Shown here in pieces: positions 3,584 to 39,974 of a DNA stretch of 64,000 bases (positions within the stretch are counted from its first letter, which is position 1; every line of letters starts with the position of its first letter). A program made the translations under genes and the position numbers. The notes below the pieces were generated by a model. It had not been told where the DNA came from. It did not search any database and saw only the letters and a program-made list of their open reading frames with translations. This DNA is from Pseudobutyrivibrio sp. MD2005 (GTDB lineage Bacteria; Bacillota; Clostridia; Lachnospirales; Lachnospiraceae), in the NCBI RefSeq assembly GCF_000621865.1, contig NZ_JHXE01000001.1, positions 248,001-312,000 on the forward strand. The letters are read 5' to 3'.

Positions 3584-3590
3584 ATATAAT

Positions 3591-3673
3591 CAAATTCAAT
3601 TAACAATCTATTATGCTCTGTAAGGAACATCTAGTGACTGAAAGAGCCATAATGATTGTTAATGTAGAATTTG
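3591..3673 (+). repeat. Nested inverted-repeat element, family 1, copy 1 (HPr leader)
   Basis: Three nested stems can be read. The outer stem is CAAATTC 3591-3597 with GAATTTG 3667-3673. The inner stem is TTAACAATC 3600-3608 with GATTGTTAA 3654-3662. The apical stem is ATTATGCTCT 3610-3619 with AGAGCCATAAT 3643-3653, with one bulged C. The apical loop carries GGAACATCTAGTGAC, shared with the two copies at 24256-24432. A TATAAT hexamer at 3585-3590 abuts the left arm but has no convincing -35. No T-run follows, so it does not look like a terminator. It ends 21 bases before the HPr start. Confidence 0.85.
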
Positions 3674-3694
3674 TCATAAACTAGGATTTTTGAT

Positions 3695-3961
3695 ATGGTT
3701 TCTAAAAAAGTTAAGATAGTAAATGCTACTGGCTTGCACTTAAGACCAGCGGGAGTATTGTGCGAGACAGCTATGAAATACAATAGTAAGGTTACATTTA
3801 CTACAGACAATCACTATGAGGCAAATGCCAAATCAGTGCTCAGTGTTCTGGGCGCTTGTGTGAAGTCTGGAGAGGAAATAGAACTAAGCTGTGATGGTGA
3901 TGACGAAGAGGCAGCGCTATCAGACCTCGTAGCATCCATCGAAGGAGGCTTAGGCGAATAA
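3695..3961 (+). CDS. ptsH: HPr-family phosphocarrier protein
   Basis: This small cytoplasmic phosphocarrier of the sugar phosphotransferase system passes phosphate from enzyme I to EII complexes. In Firmicutes it also controls carbon catabolite repression when phosphorylated on serine. The 88-residue length is right. The active-site histidine is H15 in GLHLRPAG. The regulatory serine is at about S47 in AKSVLSVLG, matching Ser46 of Bacillus HPr, and GACVKSGEEIEL follows as usual. A weak AGGA lies eight bases before ATG. It stands alone between glmM and leuA, with structured repeats on both sides. A Crh-like role is less likely because the catalytic His is present. Confidence 0.93.
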   Translation: MVSKKVKIVNATGLHLRPAGVLCETAMKYNSKVTFTTDNHYEANAKSVLSVLGACVKSGEEIELSCDGDDEEAALSDLVASIEGGLGE

Positions 3962-4020
3962 AATTCGTATAAAAAAATCGTGTAGTTAAATCATTAGATT
4001 TATATACATATACTAAAAAA

Positions 4021-4156
4021 AGCTTGCTTAAGAATGATTAACAGTAGGCTGTAGCTATAAAGCTCTGGCCAAAGCTCAAGCGAGACGTGTTGTCGAGCGG
4101 AGTTTGGACAGGCTTGAGAGCGTAACAGCCGAGCCACAGACTTGAATGAGCAAGCT
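4021..4156 (+). repeat. Nested inverted-repeat element, family 2, copy 1 (leuA leader)
   Basis: The outer stem is AGCTTGCT 4021-4028 with AGCAAGCT 4149-4156. The 84-base core spans 4047-4130 and is closed by GGCTGT/ACAGCC. Inside, CCAAAGCTC pairs with GGAGTTTGG (one bulge), and GCTC plus GAC pair with GTC plus GAGC around a GTGTT loop. The core differs from the copy at 6834-6917 at only three positions; two of these are a compensatory C-G to A-T swap in the closing stem. The element ends 25 bases before leuA and is followed by its AAGGAGGAAG ribosome binding site. Confidence 0.85.
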
Positions 4157-4181
4157 AGACGCAGAATAAGGAGGAAGAATA

Positions 4182-5870
4182 ATGTTAAACTACAAGCGTT
4201 ACAAAGCGAACCCAGTGTTAAAGTTTCCTGAGCGTACATGGCCAGAAAAACAGATCACAAAAGCTCCACTATGGTGTTCAGTTGATCTACGTGACGGCAA
4301 TCAGGCTCTCGTCGAACCAATGAATGTTGACGAGAAAATGGAACTATTCGACCTCCTACTAAAACTTGGATTTAAAGAGATAGAGATTGGCTTTCCCGCA
4401 GCAAGCCAAATTGAATATGATTTTTTAAGAAAACTTGTTAAGGAAAATAAGATTCCTTCAGATGTTAAGGTTCAGGTGCTTTCACAGTGTCGTGAAGAGC
4501 TTATAGATCGTACATTTGAGGCTATTCAGGGAATCCCAAATGTTATTTTCCATATTTACAACTCGACATCTACATTACAGCGTGATGTTGTGTTCAATGC
4601 AGATAAAGATGAAATCATCAAGATTGCTAAAGCAGGTACTCAGATGGTTAAAGATAGACTTGATAGATATGATGGCAATCTTCAGCTTGAATATTCTCCA
4701 GAATCATTTACTGGTACTGAAGTAGAATTTGCTCTTGATATCTGTACAGCAGTTCAGGATACATGGGATCATGCAACAGATGCTCCGATTATTTTTAACT
4801 TACCTGCAACAGTAGAGATGAACACACCTAACGTATATGCGGATCAGATTGAGTGGATGAGTACACACTTTAAAGATAGAGAAAACATCATCCTTTCAAT
4901 TCACCCACATAATGATAGAGGTACAGGCGTTGCTATTACAGAGCTTGGTCTTCTTGCTGGAGCAGACAGAGTAGAGGGAACACTTCTTGGTAATGGTGAG
5001 CGCACAGGTAATGTAGATATTCTTACAATCGCATACAATATGTTTTCACAGGGCGTAAACCCAGAGCTTAATCTTGACGACATCAAAGAAATCGTTGAAG
5101 TATGCGAAAGAGTTACTAAAATGCCAACAGACGCAAGACACCCTTATGCTGGTGAGCTTGTGTTTACTGCATTCTCTGGTTCACACCAGGATGCTATAAA
5201 TAAGGGCGTTCGTGCAATGAAGGATCGCAACAACATGTACTGGGAGGTTCCATATCTTCCAATCGATCCTGCAGATATCGGACGTAAGTACGAGCCAGTG
5301 GTTCGTATCAACAGCCAGTCTGGCAAGGGCGGAGTTGCCTTTGTTATGGACACAGTATATGGCTACAAGCTTCCAAAGAAGATGCAGCGTGAATTCGCTG
5401 ATGTTGTTCAGCGAATTTCTGAAAAGCAGGGTGGCGAAGTTACACCACAGCGCATTATGGAAGCATTCAAGTCTCAGTATCTTGAGAATAAAGAGCCACT
5501 TACACTTGAGTATGTGGTTATTAAGGATGACAAGGAAACAGACGATACAGTTGCAGTTCTTGACTTCAGCTACAATGGTGAGAAATTCCACTCAGAGGCT
5601 GAAGGTAACGGACCTATCGATGCTGTTAAGCTTGCAATTAAGCAGTGCGTACCAGAGTTAGACTTTACACTTATCGACTATACTGAGCATACACTTGCTC
5701 AATCACAGGGCTCAGGTGCAAAGGCTGCTGCTTATATAGAAATGAGAGACGAGAGACACGGCAATACCACATTTGGTGTAGGCGTAAGTTCAAACATCAC
5801 ACGTGCTTCTATCCGTGGTATGTTCAGCGCATACAATCGTCTTATCAAAATAGCAAAGGACTATGTATAA
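4182..5870 (+). CDS. leuA: 2-isopropylmalate synthase LeuA
   Basis: It condenses acetyl-CoA with 2-oxoisovalerate, the committed step of leucine synthesis. The 562-residue length and WPEKQITKAPLWCSVDLRDG opening match the longer LeuA type found in many Clostridia and Actinobacteria. The TIM-barrel domain has the catalytic DLRDGNQ at residues 35-41 and the metal-binding HPHND at 241-245, with GNGERTGNVD after it. The C-terminal part (about 430-562, LEYVVIKDD...VGVSSNITRASIRGMFSA) is the leucine-responsive regulatory domain, so feedback inhibition is expected. ATG 4182 follows AAGGAGGAAG. The 5' leader holds a family 2 repeat rather than a recognisable T-box. rfbD begins only three bases after the stop. 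Confidence 0.96.
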   Translation: MLNYKRYKANPVLKFPERTWPEKQITKAPLWCSVDLRDGNQALVEPMNVDEKMELFDLLLKLGFKEIEIGFPAASQIEYDFLRKLVKENKIPSDVKVQVLSQCREELIDRTFEAIQGIPNVIFHIYNSTSTLQRDVVFNADKDEIIKIAKAGTQMVKDRLDRYDGNLQLEYSPESFTGTEVEFALDICTAVQDTWDHATDAPIIFNLPATVEMNTPNVYADQIEWMSTHFKDRENIILSIHPHNDRGTGVAITELGLLAGADRVEGTLLGNGERTGNVDILTIAYNMFSQGVNPELNLDDIKEIVEVCERVTKMPTDARHPYAGELVFTAFSGSHQDAINKGVRAMKDRNNMYWEVPYLPIDPADIGRKYEPVVRINSQSGKGGVAFVMDTVYGYKLPKKMQREFADVVQRISEKQGGEVTPQRIMEAFKSQYLENKEPLTLEYVVIKDDKETDDTVAVLDFSYNGEKFHSEAEGNGPIDAVKLAIKQCVPELDFTLIDYTEHTLAQSQGSGAKAAAYIEMRDERHGNTTFGVGVSSNITRASIRGMFSAYNRLIKIAKDYV

Positions 5871-5873
5871 GAA

Positions 5874-6734
5874 ATGAGAAAGATTTTAGTGACTGGTTGT
5901 AACGGTCAGCTTGGTCGTGCAATACAGGAAGAGTACAAGGATGAAGTAGAGTTTATCCTTACAGATGTAGTAGAGGGAGAAAAGATTTCACCTCTCAACA
6001 TTATGGATTTGAATGAGGTTCTTTCATTCGTTGAAGAGAAAAAGCCAGATGTAATCATCAATTGTGCTGCCGCTACAAATGTAGATGGTTGCGAGAAGGA
6101 TTGGGATTTTGCATACAAGCTTAATGCACTTGGCCCTAGAAACCTTGCAATTGCCGCTACAAAGGTTGGAGCAAAGCTTGTGCATGTCAGTACAGATTAT
6201 GTTTTCCCTGGCAATGCATCAAAGCCAATCACAGAGTTTGACCAGCCAGCGCCAATCAGTGCATACGGCAAGACAAAGTACGAAGGCGAGAAATTTGTTC
6301 AGCAGTTTGCCGAGAAATGGTTCATCGTTCGTACAGCATGGCTTTATGGCGATGGCAAGAATTTCGTCAAGACGATGCTTTCATTAGCAGAGACACATGA
6401 TGAACTTTCAGTTGTTTGCGACCAGCTTGGTTCACCTACATCAGCTGCAGAGCTTGCTAGACTCATCCATCATCTTGAGCCTACAGAAAACTATGGAATC
6501 TTCCATGGCACATGCGAAGGCGATACCAACTGGGCAGATTTCACAGAAGAAATCTTCAAGCTTAAGGGCATCAATGCAAAGGTCAACCATGTCACTAGCG
6601 ATGAATACAAGCGCATGAATCCTGCCAGTGCCGATAGACCGCACTACAGCATTTTGGATAACTACATGCTTCGCCTCACAAGCGACTACCGCATGGCCGA
6701 CTGGCACGACGCACTCCGCGAATATTTGGCGTAA
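5874..6734 (+). CDS. rfbD: dTDP-4-dehydrorhamnose reductase RfbD
   Basis: It catalyses the last step of dTDP-L-rhamnose synthesis, NAD(P)H-dependent reduction of dTDP-4-keto-L-rhamnose. The 286-residue extended SDR protein has the nucleotide-binding motif TGCNGQLG near the N-terminus, STDYVFPG, the catalytic Y131-x-x-x-K135 (YGKTK), RTAWLYG, and a C-terminal RPHYSILDN substrate motif. It starts three bases after leuA and is probably translated from the same message. Its partners rfbB, rfbA and rfbC follow at 6957-10791, so the rhamnose set is complete although separated by repeat-bearing gaps. Confidence 0.95.
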   Translation: MRKILVTGCNGQLGRAIQEEYKDEVEFILTDVVEGEKISPLNIMDLNEVLSFVEEKKPDVIINCAAATNVDGCEKDWDFAYKLNALGPRNLAIAATKVGAKLVHVSTDYVFPGNASKPITEFDQPAPISAYGKTKYEGEKFVQQFAEKWFIVRTAWLYGDGKNFVKTMLSLAETHDELSVVCDQLGSPTSAAELARLIHHLEPTENYGIFHGTCEGDTNWADFTEEIFKLKGINAKVNHVTSDEYKRMNPASADRPHYSILDNYMLRLTSDYRMADWHDALREYLA

Positions 6735-6808
6735 AGGCATATCGCAAAACGTTAATCGTTGTTCGAATGAACAATTATTATAAATAAAACTGATTAAGAT
6801 TTTGAATA

Positions 6809-6941
6809 GGATTTTCATCATATATTATAAATAGGATGTAGCTATAAAGCTCTGGCCAAAGCTCAAGCGAGACGTGCTGTCGAGCGGAGTTTGGACAGGC
6901 TTGAGAGCGTAACATCCGAGAAAAAACTTAAATGAAAATCC
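6809..6941 (+). repeat. Nested inverted-repeat element, family 2, copy 2 (rfbB leader)
   Basis: The outer stem is GGATTTTCAT 6809-6818 with ATGAAAATCC 6932-6941, a perfect 10-bp match unrelated in sequence to the outer stem of copy 1. The 84-base core at 6834-6917 is closed by GGATGT/ACATCC and is 81/84 identical to 4047-4130. The outer arms differ between copies but pair perfectly in each. The right arm ends 15 bases before the rfbB ATG and just upstream of its AAAGGA ribosome binding site. Confidence 0.85.
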
Positions 6942-6956
6942 GAGAAAGGATTAAAA

Positions 6957-8042
6957 ATGAGAACATATTTAGTAACAGGTGGAGCAGGCTTCATCGGAAG
7001 TAACTACATTCATTACATGTTTAAGAAGTATGATAACGAGATTCGCATCATCAACGTAGATAAGCTTACATACGCGGGTAACCTTGAGAACCTCAAGGAT
7101 GTTGAGAATCGCGATAACTACACATTCGTTAAGGCTGATATCTGCGATAAGGAAGCTATCCGCAAGATTTTTGCAGAGAACGATATTGATAGAGTTGTTC
7201 ATTTTGCTGCAGAGTCACACGTAGACCGTTCAATCAAGAACCCAGAAGTTTTCGTACAGACAAATGTACTTGGTACAGCTGTAATGCTTAACTGTGCAAA
7301 GGAAGCTTGGGAGCTTGAGGATGGCACATTCAAGGAAGGTAAGAAGTTCCTTCACGTTTCTACTGACGAAGTTTATGGATCACTTCCAGATGATGATAAC
7401 GCTTTCTTCTATGAGACAAGCCCATACGATCCACATTCACCATACTCAGCTTCAAAGGCTTCATCAGACATGCTTGTAAAGGCTTACATGGATACATATA
7501 AGTTCCCAGCAAACATTACAAACTGCTCTAATAACTATGGCCCTTACCAGTTCCCTGAGAAGCTTATCCCACTTATCATCAACAATGCACTTCAGGGCAA
7601 GGACCTTCCTGTATACGGTGATGGTAAGAACGTACGTGACTGGTTATTCGTAGAAGATCATGCTAAGGGAATCGATATGGTTCAGGAGCAGGGCAAGCTT
7701 TTCGAGACATACAACATCGGTGGACATAATGAAAAGCAGAACATCCAGATCATCCACATCATCCTTGATACACTTCAGGAGATGCTTCCAGAGGGCGACC
7801 CACGTAAGGAGCTCGTATCTGAGAACCTTATCAAGTACGTAACAGACCGTAAGGGACATGACCGTCGTTACGCAATCGCTCCAGATAAGATTAAGGAAGC
7901 AGTAGGCTGGTATCCAGAAACATGCTTCGAAGAAGGAATTAAGAAGACAATCAAGTGGTTCTTCGAGCACGAGGATTGGATGAAGAATGTAACATCTGGC
8001 GACTATCAGAAATACTACAACGATATGTACAAAGATAAATAA
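6957..8042 (+). CDS. rfbB: dTDP-glucose 4,6-dehydratase RfbB
   Basis: It dehydrates dTDP-D-glucose to dTDP-4-keto-6-deoxy-D-glucose. This is the branch point for L-rhamnose (via RfbC and RfbD) and for 4-amino-6-deoxy sugars such as the product expected from the WecE-like enzyme at 63478. The 361-residue protein has TGGAGFIGSNYI at the N-terminus, AAESHVDRSI, STDEVYG, the catalytic Y163-x-x-x-K167 (YSASK), NNYGPYQFPEKLIP, and DRKGHDRRYAI near the C-terminus, all standard for this enzyme. ATG 6957 follows AAAGGA at seven bases. Confidence 0.97.
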   Translation: MRTYLVTGGAGFIGSNYIHYMFKKYDNEIRIINVDKLTYAGNLENLKDVENRDNYTFVKADICDKEAIRKIFAENDIDRVVHFAAESHVDRSIKNPEVFVQTNVLGTAVMLNCAKEAWELEDGTFKEGKKFLHVSTDEVYGSLPDDDNAFFYETSPYDPHSPYSASKASSDMLVKAYMDTYKFPANITNCSNNYGPYQFPEKLIPLIINNALQGKDLPVYGDGKNVRDWLFVEDHAKGIDMVQEQGKLFETYNIGGHNEKQNIQIIHIILDTLQEMLPEGDPRKELVSENLIKYVTDRKGHDRRYAIAPDKIKEAVGWYPETCFEEGIKKTIKWFFEHEDWMKNVTSGDYQKYYNDMYKDK

Positions 8043-8045
8043 AAA

Positions 8046-8090
8046 GCCTTCCCCTTGAGGGGAAGGTGCCCCGTAGGGGCGGATGAGGTG
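8046..8090 (+). repeat. Two-hairpin dispersed repeat, copy 1 (rfbB-glf gap)
   Basis: Two short perfect hairpins stand side by side: CCTTCCCC 8047-8054 with GGGGAAGG 8059-8066, and GCCCC 8068-8072 with GGGGC 8076-8080. They are followed by GGATGAGGTG. The copy at 10142-10190 has the same layout with changed but still paired stems. The GAGGTG end lies five bases before the TTG start of glf and serves as its ribosome binding site. The first hairpin has no downstream T-run. Confidence 0.8.
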
Positions 8091-8095
8091 TTAAC

Positions 8096-9214: not shown

Positions 9215-9219
9215 AGTTA

Positions 9220-9242
9220 GCAATTGTAGGCGTAACAATTGC
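9220..9242 (+). repeat. Short hairpin resembling a core-deleted family 2 element (rfbA leader)
   Basis: GCAATTGT 9220-9227 pairs perfectly with ACAATTGC 9235-9242 around the loop AGGCGTA. The TGTAG and GCGTAACA ends match the borders of the family 2 core at 4047-4130 and 6834-6917, as if the interior had been removed. AGGAGG for rfbA follows about eight bases later. Confidence 0.6.
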
Positions 9243-9259
9243 GTATTTAGGAGGAAAAT

Positions 9260-10138
9260 ATGAAGGGAATTATTTTAGCAGGTGGTTCTGGAACAAGATT
9301 GTATCCACTTACAAAGGCTATTAGTAAGCAGATTATGCCTATCTATGATAAACCAATGATTTATTATCCGCTTTCTACACTTATGCTTGCTGGTATCCGC
9401 GAGGTTTTGATTATCTCTACACCAAGAGATCTTCCAGTATTTGAGGAGCTTCTCGGTGATGGTAAGCAGCTTGGTATGGACATTCAGTATGCAGTTCAGG
9501 AAGCTCCTAACGGACTTGCTGAGGCATTTATTATAGGTGCAGATTTCATCGGAAACGATGCAGTAGCACTTGTACTTGGCGACAATATTTTCTATGGTCA
9601 GTCATTCTCGAAAGTACTTCTTTCAGCAGCTAACCGTACAGAAAATGAGCCAGGTGCAACAATCTTTGGTTACTATGTTCGTGACCCAAGAGAGTATGGC
9701 GTAGTTGAGTTTGATGAAAACGGCGTGGCTATTTCAATCGAAGAGAAGCCAGAAAAGCCAAAGAGTAATTACGCTGTTCCAGGTCTTTACTTCTATGACA
9801 ATTCTGTTGTAGAAATTGCAAAGACAATCAAGCCATCAGCTCGTGGTGAGCTTGAAATCACAGCAGTAAATAACGAGTACTTAAACCGTGGAAATCTTCA
9901 CGTTGAGACACTTGGCCGTGGATTCGCATGGCTTGATACAGGAAACCACGACATGCTTCTTGCAGCTGCAGAATTCGTAAGCACATTCCAAAAGCGCCAG
10001 GGTATGTACGTATCTTGCATCGAGGAAATCGCATACAAGCGTGGCTTCATAGACAAGGAGCAGCTTCTTAAGCTCGCTGAGCCTCTCATGAAAACAGACT
10101 ACGGCAAATATCTCGTAGACGTAGCAAACGGCTTATAA
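9260..10138 (+). CDS. rfbA: Glucose-1-phosphate thymidylyltransferase RfbA
   Basis: It makes dTDP-glucose from dTTP and glucose-1-phosphate, the first step of dTDP-rhamnose synthesis. The 292-residue protein has the nucleotidyltransferase signature [13 protein letters not shown] (G8-R13), [30 protein letters not shown] with the metal-binding Asp, [20 protein letters not shown], and [11 protein letters not shown] 9260 sits behind AGGAGG at about six bases. Product inhibition by dTDP-rhamnose is known for the family. Confidence 0.97.
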
Positions 10139-10141
10139 AAG

Positions 10142-10190
10142 GCTTCCCCTAGAAAGGGGAAGCTGTCACCGAAGGTGACTGATGAGGTGT
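10142..10190 (+). repeat. Two-hairpin dispersed repeat, copy 2 (rfbA-rfbC gap)
   Basis: The first hairpin is GCTTCCCC 10142-10149 with GGGGAAGC 10156-10163. The second is GTCACC 10165-10170 with GGTGAC 10174-10179. The shared tail TGATGAGGTGT follows. Compared with copy 1 at 8046-8090, the second stem has changed on both sides (GCCCC/GGGGC to GTCACC/GGTGAC) and stays paired. Here the tail is not the ribosome binding site; rfbC has its own AAGGAAG. Confidence 0.8.
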
Positions 10191-10215
10191 AAAAAAATAA
10201 GGAAGTAAAATTACA

Positions 10216-10791: not shown

Positions 10792-10812
10792 GTATTGTAT
10801 GGGAGAAATGAT

Positions 10813-13527
10813 ATGAGTGGAGTATGGGAAGGTGTAAAGTTATTTCTTGGCGCACACAGGACTGTAAGTCTTGCTGTAGCTGGAGCTGTAGGCGCAACTG
10901 CAGTTGGTGTGGGTGGCTATAGCATCTACAATGTAGCAAACGCAAAGCCTGAGGAAGTTCAGGTTGTGGAAGAGCAAGTTGCAGAGGCGGCACCTGTCGA
11001 GAAAGAAGATGTTTACATACCAGAAATCAAAAATGTAGTGATTACAAGTGAATCACTTGAGAAGGATTTGACAATCTACATTTCAGATGAAGAAGAAAAT
11101 CCGATTGAGGGTGTACCTTTTCAGGTTAAGCTTTTAACTCCAGAAAATGCAGAGCAAATTCAATCATATGTTGATGCAATCAAAGATATAGATGGCCAGT
11201 TGGCAGAATATGCTACAGAAGGTCAGTCTATCAGTGATCTTCTTCAGGAGCGTAATATCGATGTTACAGTTACTGACGAAGAAGGCAATGTTGTGGAGAC
11301 ACAGCAGGGGGACATCAGCTCAGATCCTCTTTATCTTTTGTATTTGGATAAAGAGACAGCTATTCAGTCTTATAACCTGGCCCTTAATGATGTTGAGGGA
11401 AAGGTTTATACAGATGATGATGAAGATGGTGTCATCACTGAGAAAGAAATGGAACCTGGCGATTATGTACTTTGTCTTGTGAATGATGTTGATGCAGAGG
11501 TAAACTATGAGCCAACTACATACACTATCGCTGCAAACGTAAAAGATAAAGTGGAGTTCAAGGTTCAGAAGGAAATCACTAAGCAGATTAAGAAGGATGT
11601 TGCCTCAGAGGATGGACAGAAGAAAGAGGCAGTTCCTGTTGAGAATAAGCTTACAGATACAGTTGAGTATATTGATTCTCGTAAAGATGAGACGGGTGGC
11701 GGTACATTTAAGGAGACTACAGATGTTGTAGCACCAAAGGCTTCAGCCACAGCTAATGCTGCAGGCGGTAAAGCTACAGTAAAAGAAGGTGGTATTACAA
11801 AGACTACACATGATGTTATCAAAACAGCTAAGGGCTATGTAAAGGCTAAAGGACCTGTTGCTGTAGCAAATAACATGTATGCAACTAATTTCTTAGCTAG
11901 CAAGGTTCGTAAGGTAGCTACTGTAACAGATACTTCTAATGGCTCAACAGATGGCAATACAGCTACTGACGAGAACAAAGATAAAGATAAAGAAAACACT
12001 GAAGGTACGACCGAGGGTGGCTCAAGTGAATCAGGTGAGACTAAGCCAGAAACAAAGCCGGAGACTCAGCCTGAAACTCAACCAGAGACAAAACCAGAGA
12101 CTCAGCCTGAGACCAAGCCAGAAACAAAGCCAGAGACTCAGCCTGAGACAAAACCTGAAACAAAGCCTGAAACAAAGCCTGAGACTAAGCCGGAGGAGAA
12201 GCCAGCACCTGCTCCAGAGCCAGCTAAAAAAGAATTCAAGGCTACAATTAATTATGTAGATGAAGCTAATAAATCTATAAAGAATGCTTTCGTGCAGACT
12301 AAAAAAGAAGGCGAGTCATATTCTTACGCTGCTGATGCAATTACTGGATACACATATGTTTCAGCAAGTGGTGATGCTTTAAGCGGCACAGTCACAAAGG
12401 ATATAAATATCACCTTCAAGTACAAGAAGAATGCTACTGAGACAAAGACAACTGAAACAGCAACACTTGATATGTCATATTCAGGTGGTACATTTACAAT
12501 TTCTGCTTCATCAAATGTAAGTGGTGTAAAGGTAAATGGCACTGATGTTTCAATGAGCGGTGGCAAGGGCACTTATAAAGTTACAAAAGACGGTGATTAT
12601 AAGCTTACTGGTACAGCAAAATTCTCTGATGGCGTGACAGATAACACATTGAGTGTTACTTACACAGTATCAGGATTTGGTACAGCTTCTACAGAAAAGC
12701 TTAAGGATTCAAAGGGCAATCAGCTTTATCTTGATCCAGAAGGTAAGACAGAAGCTACAGCTGCCAACTACGAAAAGGGTAAAAAATACTATTACAAGGA
12801 TGCTACATACAATTACTTTGGATGGCAGACAATAGATGGTAATACATATTTCTTCGATAAAAACGGAAACAAGGTTACAGGAACACAGGTAATTCAAGGT
12901 GTTCAGTACGACTTTGGTGCTGACGGAGTTCTTGTAGTTAAGGGCAATGGTATCGATGTATCTAAGTACCAGGGTTCAATCGATTGGAAGGCTGCTAAAT
13001 CAGCTGTCAACTTTGCAATTATCCGTTGTGGTTATCGTGGTATGTACGATGGACAATTACACGAGGATCCATACTTCTATAAAAATATGTCTGGTGCCAA
13101 GGGAGCAGGTGTAAACGTTGGTGTTTACATTTACTCAACAGCATTGAATGAAGCCGAGGCAGTGCAGGAAGCTTCTATGGCTGTAGCAATGGCACAGAAG
13201 GCAGGAGGATGTTCATATCCAATTTATCTAGATATGGAGGATACAGTTAGAGGTCAGAGCAAACTTTCAGTAGACCAGAGAATGGCTATCGTAAATGCGT
13301 TTGTATCTACAGTACAGTCATCAGGCTATAAGGCAGGTTTATACTGCAGTAAGAACTGGATGACAGCAAGAATGAATGCTGGAGCAATTCCAGGCTCATG
13401 TAGTGTATGGATTGCTCAGTACAATACTTCATGTACATATTCAGGAAGAAAGAATATGTGGCAGTATTCTAGCAAGGGTTCTATACCAGGAATTAAAGGT
13501 CATGTAGATATGAATAGGGCCTTCTAA
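10813..13527 (+). CDS. Surface GH25 muramidase with ETKP linker and wall-binding repeat
   Basis: This is a predicted exported muramidase of 904 residues. ATG 10813 is chosen because GGGAG lies eight bases upstream; a TTG further up is inferior. Order of parts: an N-terminal hydrophobic segment (about 18-38) as signal or anchor; acidic beta-rich regions; fourteen ETKP/ETQP units at 409-464; a MucBP-like module at about 474-540; a cell-wall-binding-like repeat near 668-708 (FGWQTIDGNTYFFDKNGNKV); and a C-terminal GH25 domain at 713-904. The GH25 domain opens GIDVSKYQG with Asp 715 and has the YLDMED catalytic region at about 805-810. It likely cuts peptidoglycan or anchors at the wall; the linker length suggests it spans the wall. 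It lies between rfbC and the first phosphoglycosyl transferase. Confidence 0.85.
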   Translation: MSGVWEGVKLFLGAHRTVSLAVAGAVGATAVGVGGYSIYNVANAKPEEVQVVEEQVAEAAPVEKEDVYIPEIKNVVITSESLEKDLTIYISDEEENPIEGVPFQVKLLTPENAEQIQSYVDAIKDIDGQLAEYATEGQSISDLLQERNIDVTVTDEEGNVVETQQGDISSDPLYLLYLDKETAIQSYNLALNDVEGKVYTDDDEDGVITEKEMEPGDYVLCLVNDVDAEVNYEPTTYTIAANVKDKVEFKVQKEITKQIKKDVASEDGQKKEAVPVENKLTDTVEYIDSRKDETGGGTFKETTDVVAPKASATANAAGGKATVKEGGITKTTHDVIKTAKGYVKAKGPVAVANNMYATNFLASKVRKVATVTDTSNGSTDGNTATDENKDKDKENTEGTTEGGSSESGETKPETKPETQPETQPETKPETQPETKPETKPETQPETKPETKPETKPETKPEEKPAPAPEPAKKEFKATINYVDEANKSIKNAFVQTKKEGESYSYAADAITGYTYVSASGDALSGTVTKDINITFKYKKNATETKTTETATLDMSYSGGTFTISASSNVSGVKVNGTDVSMSGGKGTYKVTKDGDYKLTGTAKFSDGVTDNTLSVTYTVSGFGTASTEKLKDSKGNQLYLDPEGKTEATAANYEKGKKYYYKDATYNYFGWQTIDGNTYFFDKNGNKVTGTQVIQGVQYDFGADGVLVVKGNGIDVSKYQGSIDWKAAKSAVNFAIIRCGYRGMYDGQLHEDPYFYKNMSGAKGAGVNVGVYIYSTALNEAEAVQEASMAVAMAQKAGGCSYPIYLDMEDTVRGQSKLSVDQRMAIVNAFVSTVQSSGYKAGLYCSKNWMTARMNAGAIPGSCSVWIAQYNTSCTYSGRKNMWQYSSKGSIPGIKGHVDMNRAF
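12037..12204 (+). repeat. Fourteen 12-bp tandem repeats encoding ETKP/ETQP
   Basis: The stretch is in frame within the GH25 gene and encodes fourteen tetrapeptides, ten ETKP, three or four ETQP variants and a final EEKP. Synonymous variation (GAG/GAA, ACT/ACA/ACC, AAG/AAA) shows that the array is not freshly expanded. Pro-rich repeats of this kind are known as wall-spanning spacers. Length changes by slippage are likely between strains. Confidence 0.9.
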
Positions 13528-13537
13528 CAGGAGTAAT

Positions 13538-16161: not shown

Positions 16162-16251
16162 GCATCATGTAAATAACAAGCTATTATGCTTATGAGCGAG
16201 GCGTTCTAAGCCGAGTGAATAAACATAATGCTTGTGATTGTAACATGATGC
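16162..16251 (+). repeat. Nested inverted-repeat element, family 3, copy 1
   Basis: The outer stem is GCATCATGT 16162-16170 with ACATGATGC 16243-16251. The inner stem is ACAAGC plus ATTATG (16176-16188, one bulged T) with CATAATGCTTGT 16224-16235. The loop holds TTATGAGCGAGG and GTGAATAAA, echoed in the element at 39811-39956. The 20 bases just before it (16142-16161, ending TTAGATGA) match 24236-24255 at 17 of 20 positions. It ends 17 bases before the next start codon. Confidence 0.75.
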
Positions 16252-16268: not shown

Positions 16269-17363
16269 ATGACAATATTGCATATTTCTAAGTCGAGTAC
16301 ATACAGTGGTATGGAAAATGTTGCTATCAACATTATTAAGGCTATGCCTGAAAAGATTCATAGCGTTTATCTCACAGCCACTGGCTCAATCGAGACAAAG
16401 CTGTTAGAGCAGGATGTTGAGTACATTGGCGTGGAAAAGGTAGATGAGGCTGCAATAAAAAGAGCCATTGAGGAGGTTCAACCTGACATCATCCATGCCT
16501 ATGAATATGATTGCAGCCTTATGTGTACGAAAGTCACTGATACAATTCCAATTATCAGCCATTTGTATTCTTTCCCAAAATGGGTTCAAAAGATTGGCCC
16601 TAAGTCAGTTATCTATGGTGGCGCTTGCAAAAACTTTGCCAAAATCATCATCCCTGTAAAGAAGGTCGAAGAAAAGGCTTGGTTTAGAGATAAGATGGAA
16701 GGCAAGACAGTAGTGCTTGGCACTCCATTTAATGCTGTGCGCATTTTCGAAAAAGGATATTTGCCAGGCAAAGAAATGTCAAAAGAAAAGCTTGAAGGCT
16801 ATAAGTCTGATTTGCTTTTTGTGGGATATCTGACTGACAATAAAAATCCTTATGAATTTGTTCGTATTGTCAACGAGGTGAAAAAGACCCATCCAGATAT
16901 AAAAGCTGTCATGGTAGGCGGTGGTGATTTGGGAAGCGAATGCCTTGAGCTTATCGGCAAGCTAGGACTTGGCGATAATATCAAAATGGCTGGCCTGCAG
17001 CATAATCCTTATATCTACATGAATTATACAAAGATACTAGTTGCTCCTTCAAAATTTGAGGGCTTTGGTATGGCTGTGGCAGAGGCTATGGCCTTTGGTA
17101 AGCCAGTACTTGCCAGCAAAGTGGGCGGTCTAGTTCTAAATGTAAACGATGATTGTGGCAAAATCTGTGGAACAGATAAAAAGCCTATTGATAGAGAAGC
17201 TTTTGTGAGAAACATAAATGAGCTTCTTGAAAATGAAGAAATCTACAGAATGAAATCTGAAGGCGCACGAAAGCGTGCTAAGGATATAAATAATTTCGAT
17301 GAATATATGGAAGAAGTATTGAAGATCTATGAAGATGCTTACGATGCCTCTACCAAAAATTAA
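16269..17363 (+). CDS. Glycosyltransferase family 4 (GT-B)
   Basis: This 364-residue GT-B transferase is predicted to extend the repeat unit. The N-terminal domain shows the glycine-poor SGMENVAINI acceptor-site segment and QPDIIHAYEYD. The C-terminal domain shows LLFVGYLTDNKNPYEF, MVGGGDLG and the EX7E-type KFEGFGMAVAEAMAFGKPVLAS. AGGAG lies seven bases before ATG. It opens a new transcription segment after a structured repeat and is followed 19 bases later by the polytopic protein at 17383. Sugar specificity is unknown. Confidence 0.9.
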   Translation: MTILHISKSSTYSGMENVAINIIKAMPEKIHSVYLTATGSIETKLLEQDVEYIGVEKVDEAAIKRAIEEVQPDIIHAYEYDCSLMCTKVTDTIPIISHLYSFPKWVQKIGPKSVIYGGACKNFAKIIIPVKKVEEKAWFRDKMEGKTVVLGTPFNAVRIFEKGYLPGKEMSKEKLEGYKSDLLFVGYLTDNKNPYEFVRIVNEVKKTHPDIKAVMVGGGDLGSECLELIGKLGLGDNIKMAGLQHNPYIYMNYTKILVAPSKFEGFGMAVAEAMAFGKPVLASKVGGLVLNVNDDCGKICGTDKKPIDREAFVRNINELLENEEIYRMKSEGARKRAKDINNFDEYMEEVLKIYEDAYDASTKN

Positions 17364-24255: not shown

Positions 24256-24344
24256 ACAAATCTTAGTTAACAATATATTTGTTCTCTGAAAGGAACATCT
24301 AGTGACTGGAAGAGAATCTAATTATTGTTAACGTAAAGATTTGT
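24256..24344 (+). repeat. Nested inverted-repeat element, family 1, copy 2
   Basis: The outer stem is ACAAATCTT 24256-24264 with AAGATTTGT 24336-24344. The inner stem is GTTAACAATA 24266-24275 with TATTGTTAAC 24323-24332. The apical stem is TTCTCT 24282-24287 with AGAGAA 24311-24316. The loop carries GGAACATCTAGTGAC. Compared with copy 3, the inner stem has C-G replaced by A-T and the apical stem G-C replaced by T-A, both still paired. It is preceded by a 20-base flank (24236-24255) like that of the element at 16162. Confidence 0.87.
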
Positions 24345-24349: not shown

Positions 24350-24432
24350 AAATTCAGTTAACAATCTAATTGTGCTCTGTAGGGAACATCTAGTGACCGA
24401 AAGAGCATCTATTGATTGTTAACGTAGAATTT
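24350..24432 (+). repeat. Nested inverted-repeat element, family 1, copy 3 (tandem with copy 2)
   Basis: The outer stem is AAATTC 24350-24355 with GAATTT 24427-24432. The inner stem is GTTAACAATC 24357-24366 with GATTGTTAAC 24414-24423, a perfect 10-bp match. The apical stem is GCTCT 24374-24378 with AGAGC 24402-24406. The loop again carries GGAACATCTAGTGAC. It begins five bases after copy 2 ends and stops 14 bases before the PtmE-like start, just before its GGAG. Confidence 0.87.
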
Positions 24433-24446: not shown

Positions 24447-25487
24447 ATGGATAATGTGTTAATTAGAGAAGATGACAGCATTTTACAGGCGATGCGTACA
24501 TTTGATGCTAGTGGCAGACGCACAGTGTTTATTGTTGATGATAGCAACAAGCTTTTGGCAGCTCTTTCAGAGGGCGATGTGCGTCGTTTTATTTTGTCTG
24601 GTGGCGATTTAAATGAGTCTGTAAAAAAGATTGCAAATTATAAACCTCGTAGCATTACTGAAGATGAAAAGGCTGATGCTAGAGATTTCTTACGTCGTCA
24701 TAATATCGAAGGCTTGCCTATTGTTGATGAAAATGGTGTTGTTATCGATACAGTTTTTTGGAGTGAGAATCACTACAAGAAGCATTCAACATTAAGCACA
24801 CCTGTTGTCATGATGGCAGGTGGTAAAGGCACAAGACTTTATCCATACACAAGAATTTTGCCAAAGCCACTTATTCCAGTAGGTGAAAAGCCAATCGCTG
24901 AGCTTATTATGGATAGCTTTGCTGACTATGGAATAGACAGAATGATTATGATAGTAAATCATAAGAAAAATATGATTAAGTCATATTTTGGCGAGGCGGA
25001 AAGACCATATAATATCGAATATATTGATGAGGATGAACCACTTGGAACAGGTGGAGGTCTTGCACTTCTTCGAGGCAAGATTAATGAGACATTTATCCTT
25101 ACAAACTGCGATATCCTCATTGAAGAAGATTATTCAAAGATATATGAGCACCATAAAAAAGAAGGCAACTTAGTTACAATGGTTTGCTCTTTAAGAAATT
25201 TCCAGGTGGCTTACGGAGTCGTTGAATTTGGTGAGCACGGAAATATCACAGATATGAAGGAGAAGCCAGAGTTTAGCTTCTTTACAAATACAGGTATTTA
25301 TGTAGTTGAGCCAGAGGTAATCGATTACATTAAGGATGGAGAATTCATTGGATTCCCAGATATCATCAATAGAATCAAAAACGATGGTAAAAAAGCAGGT
25401 GTTTATCCTATAAACGAAAACACTTGGATGGATATGGGACAGCTTGATGAACTAAGCAAGATGGAAAGTAGACTTAGAGGAAAATAG
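24447..25487 (+). CDS. ptmE: CBS-domain sugar-1-phosphate nucleotidyltransferase, PtmE-like
   Basis: The protein joins two N-terminal CBS domains (about residues 1-110; VFIVDDSNKLLAALSEGDVRR, IEGLPIVDENGVVIDTVFW) to a nucleotidyltransferase domain with MAGGKGTRLYPYTRILPKPL (signature at 124-130), LTNCDILIEEDY and EKPEFSFFTNTGIYV. This architecture and its placement next to leg genes match PtmE, which in Campylobacter makes GDP-glucosamine from glucosamine-1-phosphate for legionaminic acid. At 346 residues the length fits. ATG follows GGAG at seven bases. A mannose-1-phosphate-type guanylyltransferase is the alternative. The CBS pair suggests allosteric control by an adenine nucleotide. Confidence 0.85.
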   Translation: MDNVLIREDDSILQAMRTFDASGRRTVFIVDDSNKLLAALSEGDVRRFILSGGDLNESVKKIANYKPRSITEDEKADARDFLRRHNIEGLPIVDENGVVIDTVFWSENHYKKHSTLSTPVVMMAGGKGTRLYPYTRILPKPLIPVGEKPIAELIMDSFADYGIDRMIMIVNHKKNMIKSYFGEAERPYNIEYIDEDEPLGTGGGLALLRGKINETFILTNCDILIEEDYSKIYEHHKKEGNLVTMVCSLRNFQVAYGVVEFGEHGNITDMKEKPEFSFFTNTGIYVVEPEVIDYIKDGEFIGFPDIINRIKNDGKKAGVYPINENTWMDMGQLDELSKMESRLRGK

Positions 25488-25488
25488 A

Positions 25489-32073: not shown

Positions 32074-32086
32074 AGGTGTTTGTGGT

Positions 32087-33622: not shown

Positions 33623-33636
33623 ATTGGAGAAATCAA

Positions 33637-36351: not shown

Positions 36352-36366
36352 GCAGTGAGGTTTTAT

Positions 36367-37305
36367 ATGTTTGATAAAAAGATATCTTTCGTAATTCCAT
36401 GCTACTATTCGCAGGATACTATCAAAGATGTAGTAGATGATATACGTAAAGAGTTTCCAAAGACAGATTATAATATTGAGATAGTGCTTGTTAATGATGG
36501 CTCAAAGGATAATACTTTCAACGTATTAAAGTCATTAGCAGATGAAGATAGCCGCATTGTGGCAATCAATCAGTCTAAGAACTTCGGGCAGGATGCTACC
36601 ACAATGTGTGGCCTTACTAATGCTACTGGTGATTACATGGTAGTGCTTGATGATGACGGTCAGAATCCTCCATCAGAAGCACATAAGCTGCTTGATGAAA
36701 TCGAAAAGGGCTATGAGGCTGTATTTGCAAAGTACCATGTAAAAAAAGATTCTGCATTTAAAAAGTTTGGTCATGACCTAAATGATAAGATGGTTACATC
36801 TTTGATTGGTAAGCCTAAGGATATAGAGCTTAACAGCTATTTTGTTATCACAGCTTTTGTAAGAGACCAGATGATTAAGTATAAGGGCGCATATCCTTAT
36901 ATTTGGGGACTTATTCTTAGAGCGACAGATAATGTTGCAAACGTATTTGTTGAGCATAAAGCTCGTGAAGTTGGTAAGAGCACATATACTTTAAGTAAGC
37001 TTATTGGCTTATGGTTTGATGGATTTATTTCATTTTCAATCAAGCCTCTTAGAGTTACATCTGTGCTTGGCGTTTTTGCAACAATAGTAGGATTTGTTTT
37101 ACTTGCGATTATTGTGGTTAGAACATTGCTAAACGGTGATGTGGAAGGCTGGACATCAATGATGGCTGCTATATTAATCATGAGCGGAATGCAGATGTTG
37201 ATGCTTGGAATGTTAGGTGAATACGTAGGAAGAATCTTCATTAACGGTAACAATTCACCACAATTTATTATCAAGGAAAAGTACACTAAGGAGTCAGAAG
37301 ACTAG
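36367..37305 (+). CDS. Polyprenyl-phosphate glycosyltransferase (GT2, DPM1/ArnC-like)
   Basis: It is predicted to charge undecaprenyl phosphate with one sugar for use outside the membrane. The 312-residue protein has FVIPCYYSQDTI, LVNDGSKDNTF, NFGQDATTMCGL and VLDDDGQNPP as the GT2 nucleotide-sugar site. Two C-terminal hydrophobic segments (about 225-285) end in GMLGEYVGRIF, typical of GtrB/ArnC/DPM1 enzymes. ATG 36367 follows GAGG at six bases and is preferred over an upstream GTG. It is next to a GT-C-like gene upstream, and its stop overlaps the GTG of the sugar transferase at 37305. Confidence 0.9.
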   Translation: MFDKKISFVIPCYYSQDTIKDVVDDIRKEFPKTDYNIEIVLVNDGSKDNTFNVLKSLADEDSRIVAINQSKNFGQDATTMCGLTNATGDYMVVLDDDGQNPPSEAHKLLDEIEKGYEAVFAKYHVKKDSAFKKFGHDLNDKMVTSLIGKPKDIELNSYFVITAFVRDQMIKYKGAYPYIWGLILRATDNVANVFVEHKAREVGKSTYTLSKLIGLWFDGFISFSIKPLRVTSVLGVFATIVGFVLLAIIVVRTLLNGDVEGWTSMMAAILIMSGMQMLMLGMLGEYVGRIFINGNNSPQFIIKEKYTKESED

Positions 37306-38678
37306 TGAAAAACAAAAATACCATCAGAAAAATCGAAAGCTTAATAGAGTTATGTATACTTACTTTTGTTTACTTGTATATCTACTGGAATCACATTTTC
37401 AACTGGAATGATTTTCATCCTATGTGGGGCCGTGGTAAGTATGTATTCATGGGTGTATATTTCATCCTTAATCTTGTGATTATACATTTGTGCGATGGAT
37501 TCAAATATGGAATTCTTAGAATGGCAGATGTGTTGTTTTCACAGTGGATTGCCATCGGTATTTCAAACGTAATCACCTATTTACAGCTTTCATTGATGGC
37601 TAACAGAATGATTTCTATTAAGCCTATTATAGGGCTTACGGCTATTGATTATGTGATTTCGGGAATATTTGTATATATTTTCTTTTTTATTTATTACAGA
37701 CATTCCAAAGCTAGCAAGCTTTTGATGGTATATGGAGTGAAGGAATCGGTTGGGCTCAAGCTGAAAATGGATACTCGCTCAGATAGTTACAATATTAAAA
37801 AGATTATTAGCATTGAAGAAGGTTTAGATGCCATCTTCAAAGAGCTTGAAAATTTTGATGGTATCGTTATTTCCGATGTTAGTGCAGAGCAGCGAAACGA
37901 TTTGCTTAAGTATTGCTACATGCATGAAATCGAAACATATATTACACCAAAGATTTCAGATGTAATCATTGCAGGTGGCGAGGATATTCATCAGTTTGAT
38001 ACCCCACTTACTATGATTAATACAAAGGGCCTTGCGCCTGAGCAAGAGCTTGTTAAGAGATTTTTTGATGTACTGCTTTGTGCAATTGCGGCAGTAGTAC
38101 TTTCACCACTTATGGTTATTGTTGCCATTGCAATTAAGCTTGAAGATCACGGCGCTGTCTTTTATAAGCAGGCTCGTGTAACAAAAGATGGTAAGGTATT
38201 TGATATCCTTAAATTCCGTAGCATGGTCGAAGATGCAGAGCAGCGTCCAGCTACAGATGACGACGATAGAATTACAAAGGTAGGTCACGTGATTCGTGCT
38301 ACAAGAATCGATGAGCTACCACAGATTTTCAACATTATAAAGGGCGACATGTCTATTGTGGGACCACGTCCAGAGCGAACAGAGCATGTTGAAAAATATA
38401 CAGCAGCTATACCAGAGTTTGAATTTAGAAGTAAAGTAAAGGGCGGCCTTACAGGCTTTGCTCAGATTTACGGCAAGTACAACACATCAGCTTACGATAA
38501 GATTAAGCTTGATTTGATGTATATTGAAAACTATAGTTTCTTGTTAGATGTAAAGCTTATTCTTATGACTATAAGAATTGTTTTCAAGAAAGAAAGCACA
38601 GAGGGCTTTGATAAGATTGCATCTGCAGATGAGATATTAGCATCTATTGATGCAAGCAGCAGTAAAAAAGAGGACTAA
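37305..38678 (+). CDS. Polyprenyl glycosylphosphotransferase (initiating sugar transferase), copy 2
   Basis: This 457-residue second initiating enzyme has four N-terminal membrane segments (15-130), a Rossmann middle domain, and the catalytic C-terminal sugar transferase domain with DILKFRSMVEDAEQRP, RIDELPQ (D336, E337) and VGPRPERTE. Length and layout match the enzyme at 13538, but the N-terminal segments differ strongly. GTG 37305 overlaps the upstream TAG by one base. Two initiators imply two glycan types or two starter sugars in this locus. Confidence 0.92.
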   Translation: MKNKNTIRKIESLIELCILTFVYLYIYWNHIFNWNDFHPMWGRGKYVFMGVYFILNLVIIHLCDGFKYGILRMADVLFSQWIAIGISNVITYLQLSLMANRMISIKPIIGLTAIDYVISGIFVYIFFFIYYRHSKASKLLMVYGVKESVGLKLKMDTRSDSYNIKKIISIEEGLDAIFKELENFDGIVISDVSAEQRNDLLKYCYMHEIETYITPKISDVIIAGGEDIHQFDTPLTMINTKGLAPEQELVKRFFDVLLCAIAAVVLSPLMVIVAIAIKLEDHGAVFYKQARVTKDGKVFDILKFRSMVEDAEQRPATDDDDRITKVGHVIRATRIDELPQIFNIIKGDMSIVGPRPERTEHVEKYTAAIPEFEFRSKVKGGLTGFAQIYGKYNTSAYDKIKLDLMYIENYSFLLDVKLILMTIRIVFKKESTEGFDKIASADEILASIDASSSKKED

Positions 38679-38681
38679 ATT

Positions 38682-39767
38682 TTGAGAACATTACAGAATA
38701 CAGAATTTGAGTATGAAGTTGATTTAAAACTGAAAAACATATTGATAATCATGCCAAATTTCTATTCCTACCAAACTAAGATTAGAGATGATATGATTGC
38801 CCGCGGGGCAAATGTCATGTTTTATGACGAGGAGCCTGAGCGCTCCAAGTTCCTGATTCTGCAGAGATTGGGCAAGCTTTTCAAAAAGAGCAACATCTTC
38901 GAGAAGTTCAATAAGGAGCTTGCAAGCAGAATTATTGCAGAGATGCCAGCAGGCGGCTATGATTATTTTCTTGTTATCAGAGGCAATATAATCACCGAAG
39001 AGACGGTAAATACAATCAATGCAAATGCTCTAAAGGAAGGTGCTAAGACTATTTACTATGCTTGGGATTCATTTGAGAACATGAACCACAAGGGTGAGCT
39101 TGGCAGATTATTCGACCACCGAGCAACATTTGATTCAGTAGATGCCAAAAATCATTCTGACTATGAGCTACTTCCATTGTTCTACTCAGATGATTTTGAT
39201 GCCACATTAGTTGATAAGGATGTAGAAAACAAATACGATTACGCGTCAGTATCTGCATTTTTCCCATTTAGATATCGTTATTTCAAGGCCTTCAAGGAGG
39301 CTAATCCAGATAAGAAGCTTTTCTTAAAGCTTTATTTAGCACCTAGTGTGTACAAGGGAAAGAAATTTACAGATCCAAAGCTTGTAAAGAATCTTGATAT
39401 GGATATCGTAAGCTTCGAACCTTTCTCACCACAAGACATTCGTGATGCTTGCCTTCACTCAAAGGCAGTATTAGATTTAGCAAATGAGACACAGCAGGGG
39501 CTCACAATGCGTACCATGGAAACACTTGGTATCAAACGCAAAATCGTTACAAATAATGTTTATTTGAAGGACTACGAGTTCTACAACAGCGATAATGCAA
39601 TTGTCCTAGAAGACCTTGCGAAAAAGGCTGATGAAGCAGAAGCTTCAGGCGATTACTCAGCCTTCGTATTGCCAGATAGCGCATGGCTGGATAAACCATA
39701 TGTGGAGAACGAAGACCTCCGCAAACGCTACAGCATTCATGCATGGTTGGATAATCTATTTCGTTAA
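38682..39767 (+). CDS. CgeB-like glycosyltransferase family protein
   Basis: This 361-residue soluble protein has NILIIMPNFYSYQTKIRDDM at the start and YYAWDSFENMNHKGELGRLFD, TFDSVDAKNH, LKLYLAPSVYKGKKF and SKAVLDLANETQQGLTMRTMETLG. The last is an EX7E-like donor site seen in CgeB/DUF3880-type capsule transferases. TTG 38682 follows GAGG at about nine bases. It closes the operon before a structured repeat. The fold call is reasonable; substrate is unknown. Confidence 0.75.
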   Translation: MRTLQNTEFEYEVDLKLKNILIIMPNFYSYQTKIRDDMIARGANVMFYDEEPERSKFLILQRLGKLFKKSNIFEKFNKELASRIIAEMPAGGYDYFLVIRGNIITEETVNTINANALKEGAKTIYYAWDSFENMNHKGELGRLFDHRATFDSVDAKNHSDYELLPLFYSDDFDATLVDKDVENKYDYASVSAFFPFRYRYFKAFKEANPDKKLFLKLYLAPSVYKGKKFTDPKLVKNLDMDIVSFEPFSPQDIRDACLHSKAVLDLANETQQGLTMRTMETLGIKRKIVTNNVYLKDYEFYNSDNAIVLEDLAKKADEAEASGDYSAFVLPDSAWLDKPYVENEDLRKRYSIHAWLDNLFR

Positions 39768-39810
39768 CGTAGACTTGGGTAATATATCAATTGGTAAATA
39801 GTTTAGATGA

Positions 39811-39956
39811 GTCGGCTTGAGATTGAATAACATACTGTTTATGAGACCGTGGAGCAACGTCAGCACTTAGTGAGCGAAGCGAACTTAGTACTGCTACGTT
39901 GCGCAAAGAGCGAAAGCGTGTCGAATAAACAGTGTGGTGTTCAATAGAAAGACGAC
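39811..39956 (+). repeat. Nested inverted-repeat element, family 3, copy 2 (long)
   Basis: The outer stem is GTCGGCTT 39811-39818 with AAGACGAC 39949-39956, one mismatch. The inner stem pairs 39822-39842 with 39925-39945 over 21 positions, with two G-U pairs and one mismatch. Inside it GCAACGT 39854-39860 pairs with ACGTTGC 39896-39902, and the apex includes GTGAGCGAAGCGAAC. Shared with the copy at 16162: a TTAGATGA flank just before the left arm, TTATGAG after the left inner arm and GAATAAAC at the right inner arm. It ends 18 bases before the next ATG. Confidence 0.78.
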
Positions 39957-39974
39957 GGATTAGAGGTACATAAG

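Follow-up and report, generated by a model that had tools for sequence, protein, structure and literature searches.

The question of how hairpins scattered through a genome gain control over mRNA is an old one, raised by repetitive extragenic palindromic (REP) sequences, ERIC elements and bcr elements alike. Excerpts of two REP papers describe some families whose stem has a conserved irregularity, and report that G-T pairs have been read as a sign of RNA function (PMC3733652, PMC8266576). The ERIC or IRU repeats of enterobacteria are, in the sections drawn on here, transcribed intergenic repeats of 127 bp that form long stem loops and affect mRNA stability in an orientation-dependent manner; the same sections present NEMIS/Correia elements as small repeats that yield folded transcripts, proposed to be RNase III targets (PMC2229807). 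The repeats bcr1-bcr18 of the Bacillus cereus group are described in passages of another study as intergenic, often lying in untranslated regions (UTRs) or operon gaps; the presence of bcr3 correlates with the rate of mRNA decay, and bcr10 and bcr18 were proposed to be RNA elements (PMC3446304). Finally, a survey of non-coding RNAs in 50 genomes has a mobile/repeat category for structured motifs that recur many times in a genome without keeping one orientation, and its text nowhere mentions Butyrivibrio, Lachnospir- or Roseburia (PMC11109978). In this study we describe nested hairpins in a 64,000-nucleotide window of Pseudobutyrivibrio sp. MD2005 (contig NZ_JHXE01000001.1, positions 248,001 to 312,000). 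Our favoured reading, to which we give about even credence, is that six of these elements represent a genus-specific superfamily of nested-hairpin repeats that is kept as RNA and probably acts on mRNA stability or processing.

With gene boundaries re-called here and the tail after position 63370 counted, the window contains eight gaps longer than 100 bp, six of which hold nested hairpins (fold z-scores of the gaps, -4.2 to -7.2). These six gaps precede the genes for HPr, leuA and rfbB, a glycosyltransferase gene at 16269, gene 24447 (two copies) and gene 39975. An earlier sequence-only reading had noticed hairpins in the same six gaps, and both sequence and folds bear it out. Its total of nine long gaps is reduced to eight, and in place of three element-free gaps we found two, both unstructured by fold (46121-46247, z 0.3; first 320 bases of 63371-64000, z 0.1). 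From eight copies of the leuA/rfbB type in the genome of strain MD2005 (the own genome) we built a covariance model, R1, with a core of 84 positions; other genomes of the genus carry G-numbers and loci L-numbers. The seven elements, with P1 denoting the outer stem and R1 E values taken with filters off, are as follows.

3592..3672, + strand: B-tip element in the HPr leader; P1 AAATTC/GAATTT, tip GTAAGGAACATCTAGTGACTGAA; E 4.7e-7, not a training sequence; fold z -6.6
4022..4155, + strand: A-tip element in the leuA leader; arms GCTTGCT 4022-4028 and AGCAAGC 4149-4155, model core 4047-4130; E 2.3e-32, training sequence
6809..6941, + strand: A-tip element in the rfbB leader; arms GGATTTTCAT 6809-6818 and ATGAAAATCC 6932-6941, model core 6834-6917; E 8.5e-32, training sequence
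16162..16251, + strand: A-like element before the glycosyltransferase gene; P1 GCATCATGT/ACATGATGC, 5′ flank TTTAGATGA, 3′ flank GGATTTAG; E 2.2e-16 (match 16165-16248), not a training sequence; fold z -7.1
24256..24344, + strand: B-tip element 1 before gene 24447; P1 ACAAATCTT/AAGATTTGT; E 5.2e-8 (match from 24259), not a training sequence; fold z -5.1
24350..24432, + strand: B-tip element 2 before gene 24447; P1 AAATTC/GAATTT; E 3.5e-8, not a training sequence; fold z -6.8
39811..39956, + strand: D-type nested hairpin before gene 39975; similar flank motifs, TTTAGATGA ... GGATTAG; fold z -4.9

Searching the whole window with R1 returned six matches with E values from 2e-32 to 5e-7, the next best being 0.026; two of the six are training sequences and four are not. 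The alignments placed the same base beneath the differing tips, and many loci of relatives that had been fetched by the B-tip pattern alone matched R1 at the position of that pattern. Judging by these matches, six of the seven window elements are one superfamily with exchangeable tips. The D-type element at 39811-39956 gave no R1 match in this search, and a DNA search found no second copy of it in the own genome; visual inspection of relatives showed D-like elements in their rfbB leaders. Across the window the element folds had z-scores of -2.0 to -7.1, the leuA fold taken alone being the weak one (z -2.0). The leuA-leader element covaries with seven other own-genome copies, and the rfbB and leuA copies are 94% identical over 97 nt, with one P1 pair altered on both sides. 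In the 29-pair structure of the eight training copies, 94.0% of the cells were paired, as compared to 78.4% after shuffling and 27-41% when the partners were slid, and 14 of the 29 pairs showed changes on both sides. A family with re-paired stems is thereby established. The sequence-only reading had proposed a shared element class, which the covariation, at least 52 own-genome copies and the six R1 matches in the window support. It had also assigned the cores to different families, and this was wrong for six of the seven elements: those before HPr and gene 24447 share the base module of the leuA, rfbB and 16269 elements. In addition, the GTTAAC arms of the HPr and 24447 elements are not their outermost pairing; the outer stem (AAATTC/GAATTT or ACAAATCTT/AAGATTTGT) lies further out.

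All matched elements share a common anatomy, and the window elements measure about 81-146 nt. The locus-specific outer stem P1 ends in GU/AC in most copies and is followed on its inner side by a fixed A/GUA internal loop and a short P2 of 3 bp. Beyond P2 come a fixed AAGC-U (or AAUC-U) step and the variable stem P4, topped by an interchangeable tip of one of several kinds, which include tandem G-A loops and GUA/GAA plus GGAACAUCUAGUGACC. Across P1 the 5′ and 3′ flanks are coupled: among 145 distinct aligned elements from all genomes, AUGA occurred with GGA in 34 and with GAG in none, ARUA occurred with GAG in 26 and with GGA in seven, and neither flank motif was present on either side in 42. 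A strict pattern detected four of the 145 as nested copies, that is, one element within another, and further cases were seen by eye. The AGUA/GAR motif at the stem bases may resemble the sarcin-ricin motif. Readings as a self-cleaving ribozyme, a K-turn or an integron attC site were dropped, as the respective motifs did not fit by eye.

An indication of what is being kept comes from the mismatches. In the 145 elements, 3827 cells of the modelled pairs were Watson-Crick, 117 were G-U, 25 were A-C and 148 were other combinations. In P2 alone, 28 G-U cells stood against a single A-C cell, and P1 was Watson-Crick in 841 of 859 cells. The ratio of G-U to A-C was 86:19 in tandem-sense copies, 17:1 in convergent copies and 6:3 in tandem-antisense copies. 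Such an excess of G-U over A-C points to selection on one RNA strand, since a palindrome kept as DNA, or one repaired by template switching, would be expected to show G-T and A-C alike and to lose its fixed bulges. We regard this strand-specific pairing bias as a strong lead for RNA-level selection and attach no probability to it. Alternatively, the re-pairing might be a mutational by-product that involves no selection, arising as the arms of a quasi-palindrome recombine or undergo template switching and one is copied onto the other. This would suit the nearly complete Watson-Crick pairing of P1, as well as the purB locus discussed below, where a new P1 came with a rearrangement. Arm-to-arm copying, however, would erase the fixed unpaired loops, yet these persist, and the asymmetry between G-U and A-C is unexpected from correction at the DNA level; we consider such an origin improbable.

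The location of the copies, determined from simple gene calls based on open reading frames (ORFs), was biased as well. In the own genome, 36 of the 52 copies lay in sense orientation between tandem genes, four were antisense between tandem genes, ten lay between convergent genes, none between divergent genes, and two were unclear. The 36:4 bias towards sense (two-sided, 1.9e-7) argues against a random distribution of the elements relative to genes, so that random placement, which the sequence-only reading had set against its own proposal, is countered for the tandem gaps of the own genome. In the other genomes, whose leaders were partly pre-chosen, the 93 copies comprised 66 tandem-sense, eight antisense, 12 convergent, one divergent and six unclear cases. 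The modelled end of P1 preceded the start codon by a median of 27.5 bases in the 102 tandem-sense copies of all genomes; in the window, the start codon follows the end of the outer arms, read by eye, after 14 to 26 bases, where 14-25 had been given before. The class is thus mostly, though not strictly, one of leaders and intercistronic gaps. The idea that the elements always lie in leaders holds within the window, whereas genome-wide the ten convergent copies, with some copies inside terminators, contradict it; the shared class therefore stands without its restriction to leaders.

The convergent copies also bear on the view that the elements are ordinary intrinsic terminators or attenuators. 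In all genomes together, the stem of eight of 22 convergent copies was preceded by an A-run and followed by a T-run, which indicates that the element sits within a terminator there, and terminator stems were also seen in G019 and G041. Among the 102 tandem-sense copies, however, both runs were present in only four, and TTTT followed within 22 nt of the modelled stem in only ten, as compared to nine of the 22 convergent copies. As an account of the whole class, this view is very hard to believe.

The genes that follow the window elements were identified by their domains.

3695..3961, + strand: HPr gene, 3′ of its element (PF00381, E 2.8e-27)
4182..5870, + strand: leuA, isopropylmalate synthase, 3′ of its element (PF00682, PF22615, PF08502)
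6957..8042, + strand: rfbB-like NAD-dependent epimerase/dehydratase gene, 3′ of its element (PF16363, E 1e-92)
16269..17363, + strand: group 1 glycosyltransferase gene, 3′ of its element (PF00534, E 2.4e-29)
24447..25487, + strand: nucleotidyltransferase gene with CBS domain, 3′ of two elements (PF00483 and PF00571)
39975..40811, + strand: epimerase-fold gene of the short-chain dehydrogenase/reductase (SDR) type, 3′ of the D-type element (PF01370, E 1.6e-20)

The downstream genes identified for the family (those for HPr, leuA, rfbB, a glycosyltransferase, a nucleotidyltransferase and purB) are unrelated, which fits a generic role in mRNA and speaks against a ligand switch. A ligand-binding riboswitch, or an autoregulatory leader of the ribosomal-protein type, would agree with the leader position near the ribosome binding site, the fixed internal loops and the strong covariation. 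It would, on the other hand, leave unexplained the lack of a common pathway among these genes and the ten own-genome copies between convergent genes. Moreover, neither the window nor 11 further loci scored above an Rfam gathering threshold, and E values up to 5 brought nothing credible in three sub-regions outside the region at 39.8 kb. We therefore rate a riboswitch as unlikely.

Three further features of the window were recorded. The 77-bp gap 10139-10215 before gene 10216 holds a structured hairpin of another kind (z -4.4), at 10139-10190, with CTTCCCC..GGGGAAG followed by TGTCACCGAAGGTGACTGATGAGG; a similar hairpin in G041 corresponds in position to an R1 element of the sister G019. At 6759-6774, 5′ of the rfbB leader, lies the palindrome TTGTTCGAATGAACAA, which is also found upstream of rfbB in G012 and G014 and looks like an operator or promoter element. 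Within ORF 10795-13527, 12-bp tandem units at 12036-12227 encode a KPET/QPET repeat.

Pseudobutyrivibrio species are rumen bacteria, and the range of R1 matches coincided with this genus. All copy numbers are lower bounds, because only part of the candidates was scored. The own genome, with 150 of its 323 R1 candidates scored, holds at least 52 copies; four B-tip copies recognised by their tip pattern lie outside these R1 matches, giving 56 together. We searched 41 genomes (the own genome, 24 of the same genus and 16 of other families), with at most 111 candidates scored per genome. R1 was positive in 22 of the 24 other Pseudobutyrivibrio genomes, with at least 5 to at least 110 copies each, and without a match in the 16 genomes of other families. 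G003, searched alone with 150 of 545 candidates scored, yielded at least 132 copies. No match was found in G007 and G021 and five copies were found in G004, all three genomes being 82-86% complete. Among 200 genomes of the family Lachnospiraceae, only two Pseudobutyrivibrio genomes were positive and none of the 198 from other genera, at 22 candidates scored per genome, a depth at which weak copies could be missed. By these searches, the elements are specific to the genus Pseudobutyrivibrio. Two tip patterns had no exact match among viral contigs and one copy searched against plasmids had none either, on which grounds a phage or plasmid origin was rejected. A literature search gave, among the matches listed, no description of such elements in Pseudobutyrivibrio or Butyrivibrio.

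To follow individual loci, the HPr, leuA and rfbB leaders were compared genus-wide. The leuA leader carried the element in 17 of 30 rows by eye and in 16 by R1, one being cut by a contig end. The HPr leader was in the B form in ten of 29 rows by eye, and the same or nearly the same tip occurred in nine other genomes. The rfbB leader presented at least four element types, or a simple hairpin, or none. R1 searches of ten extra leader loci yielded a single further copy, in the rfbB leader L217, whereas leuA gained none. A long GC-rich hairpin type (GCGCGAGCAGGGG...CCCTGCGGGAGC) fills some leaders where relatives carry R1 elements; it was seen in the rfbB leaders L216 and L210, in G020 opposite position 64576 of G012, and in L018 at about 1360-1480, beside the purB element. 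In the leuA leader L211 of G002, the 3′ end of the element is tandemly duplicated, possibly a turnover intermediate.

Two pairs of sister species, with about 95% identity in the HPr-leuA region and mostly 91-97% in aligned blocks, showed how fast copies are gained or lost. In the stretches compared (260 kb; 117 and 154 kb) we inspected 32 R1 matches singly. Sixteen of these formed eight shared pairs, two were similar copies at non-colinear places, and 14 were without a counterpart in the sister. Of the latter, seven had no related element in the sister (one facing an unrelated terminator-like hairpin) and four had a remnant, which suggests deletion in these four cases; of the remaining three, one matched an identical terminator stem closed by a short loop, one stood opposite a different type of element, and one could not be placed. 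A shared locus may retain its fold although the letters change. Between G020 and G012, seven pairs had changed on both sides at one locus with the structure kept. Sixteen same-locus comparisons, which exclude the inverted purB pair L044/L046 and use one sequence twice, gave 414 unchanged pairs, 15 pairs changed on both sides and five wobbles; the pair L221/L224 is misaligned in a long tip, so that its unpaired differences are meaningless.

This turnover is what a selfish palindromic repeat of the REP or MITE (miniature inverted-repeat transposable element) type would produce, a repeat without host function that prefers intergenic hairpins. Its core would move in the form of single-stranded DNA or through the action of an enzyme, and the structure would be kept because this enzyme reads it. 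Besides the 14 of 32 copies lacking a sister counterpart, the nested copies, the near-identity of the leuA and rfbB copies and an inverted leader (see below) fit this explanation, and 121 of the 145 copies, including 43 of 52 in the own genome, carry the REP tag GTAG where the inner hairpin begins at its foot. According to passages of the REP literature, the Escherichia coli REP transposase likewise requires a bulged stem (PMC3733652, PMC8266576). A Y1/RAYT transposase (PF01797), however, was found in ten of 29 genomes of the genus but not in the own genome. Furthermore, the outer ends are not conserved in sequence: the outer arms vary by copy and match only each other, unlike the terminal inverted repeats of a MITE. 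There was no consistent target duplication at presence/absence sites, one indel being flanked by TA and equally explained by deletion, and neither the viral contigs nor the plasmids provided a source for the patterns and the copy searched. Both the sense bias and the surplus of G-U relative to A-C speak for RNA. A selfish repeat is the main rival to the favoured reading, and we hold it at clearly less than even. Membership in the REP/RAYT system proper was rejected because of the transposase not found, the paired tag and the size; GTAG keeps REP as a lead.

The purB leader was informative with respect to how stems are replaced. The leaders L018, in the own genome, and L044, in a relative, have the same core in sense orientation with different letters in P1. 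In G019 (L046) the whole purB leader is inverted, element included, while the gene is intact and the order of the flanking genes unchanged; the inverted stretch also holds the neighbouring GC-rich hairpin. The G019 core is nearly unchanged (among the three rows, two differ by one base), and its P1 is wholly new and perfectly paired (GCTAATTTGT/ACAAATTAGC). In both non-inverted species, the left arm of this new P1 is already present, but at the distal end of the spacer. Some new stems thus arise by rearrangement rather than by point changes.

A nearly constant core within a new P1 also hints at a mobile hairpin cassette, in which a core with fixed loops enters the loop of an existing hairpin or the arms of another stem, swaps its tips and controls the fate of the mRNA. 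The outer stem would then be borrowed or rebuilt, hence the differing but perfectly paired ends, and in the cassettes cells would have a means of controlling mRNA fate that can be exchanged quickly. Several loci hint in this direction. The rfbB leader stem GGCAATCT/AGATTGCC occurs both with and without an inner complex element (G013 and G006), a terminator stem holds an element in its loop in G041 and a short loop in G019, copies are located at the tips of other copies, and G012 and G020 differ in element type in the same leader. We offer the cassette as a tentative, rather doubtful proposal.

Returning to the favoured reading, a superfamily kept as RNA, a number of observations weigh against it. 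The purB leader of G019 has been inverted together with its element while the gene remained intact, and four of the 52 own-genome copies are antisense. By eye, the leuA leader of 13 of 30 genus rows lacks the element or has just a simple hairpin, and whole copies distinguish sister species from each other; with presence this patchy, no single copy looks essential. In the 16 same-locus comparisons, the 15 pairs that changed in both partners and the five wobbles stand against ten pairs that differed in pairing. At 6 to 3, a clear G-U excess was missing from the antisense copies (n=12, all genomes). The pair counts pool related sequences that were aligned to R1 itself, and the set from relatives includes pre-chosen leaders and loci found by tip pattern, so that the location counts are unbiased for the own genome only. 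A neutral repeat would indeed account for much of the turnover. The sequence-only reading had left the choice between RNA control and a mobile element, and both halves find support here, the former in RNA-level selection and the latter in repeat-like turnover between sister species.

Under the favoured reading, we infer that the elements are transcribed and act in cis on mRNA, chiefly on its stability or processing at the junction between genes or ahead of the ribosome binding site, as has been reported for ERIC and bcr3. A copy in a leader or intercistronic gap would fold into a long hairpin with bulges, the end of which lies a few tens of bases upstream of the next start codon, and a convergent copy would often lie inside a terminator hairpin and be part of the terminator. 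The hairpin could set mRNA decay or processing by blocking ribonucleases or by giving them a point of entry, and perhaps also insulate the downstream start site. Copies may arise and change through recombination or transposition of cores between stems. The same gene with, without, or with a swapped or inverted element in related species amounts to a series of natural experiments on mRNA control by dispersed hairpins.

Dispersed transcribed hairpin repeats are already known as a kind. What is new here is the change of stems around fixed loops, the swappable tips, the nesting, and the residence in both leader hairpins and terminators. A repeat that keeps its shape and not its letters is hard for sequence-based repeat finders to detect, and it had no Rfam match. 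As far as the cited passages go, the elements resemble REPs in being intergenic hairpins dispersed in many copies per genome with GTAG at the foot (PMC3733652, PMC8266576). They differ from REPs in size, the core alone having 84 positions as compared to 20-50 nt, and in the GT of GTAG, which forms the inner end of P1 by pairing with AC, whereas the REP tag is unpaired and terminal; interchangeable tips, nested stems and a mostly sense position ahead of genes set them apart further. With ERIC they share the character of intergenic stem-loop repeats that are transcribed, as inferred here. The passages on ERIC, however, report 7-bp terminal repeats and target duplications (PMC2229807), whereas the outer ends described here are locus-specific and structure is shared in place of letters. 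In the same source, NEMIS/Correia elements have 24-bp terminal repeats (PMC2229807), and no such conserved ends are present here. The mobile/repeat category of the 50-genome survey, as presented in the part considered, differs in its inconsistent orientation, which is mostly consistent in our elements (PMC11109978). With the bcr elements they have in common a restriction to one taxonomic group and a location in UTRs and operon gaps; the taxon is another one, and the bcr passages say nothing of swappable tips or of stems that change around fixed loops (PMC3446304).

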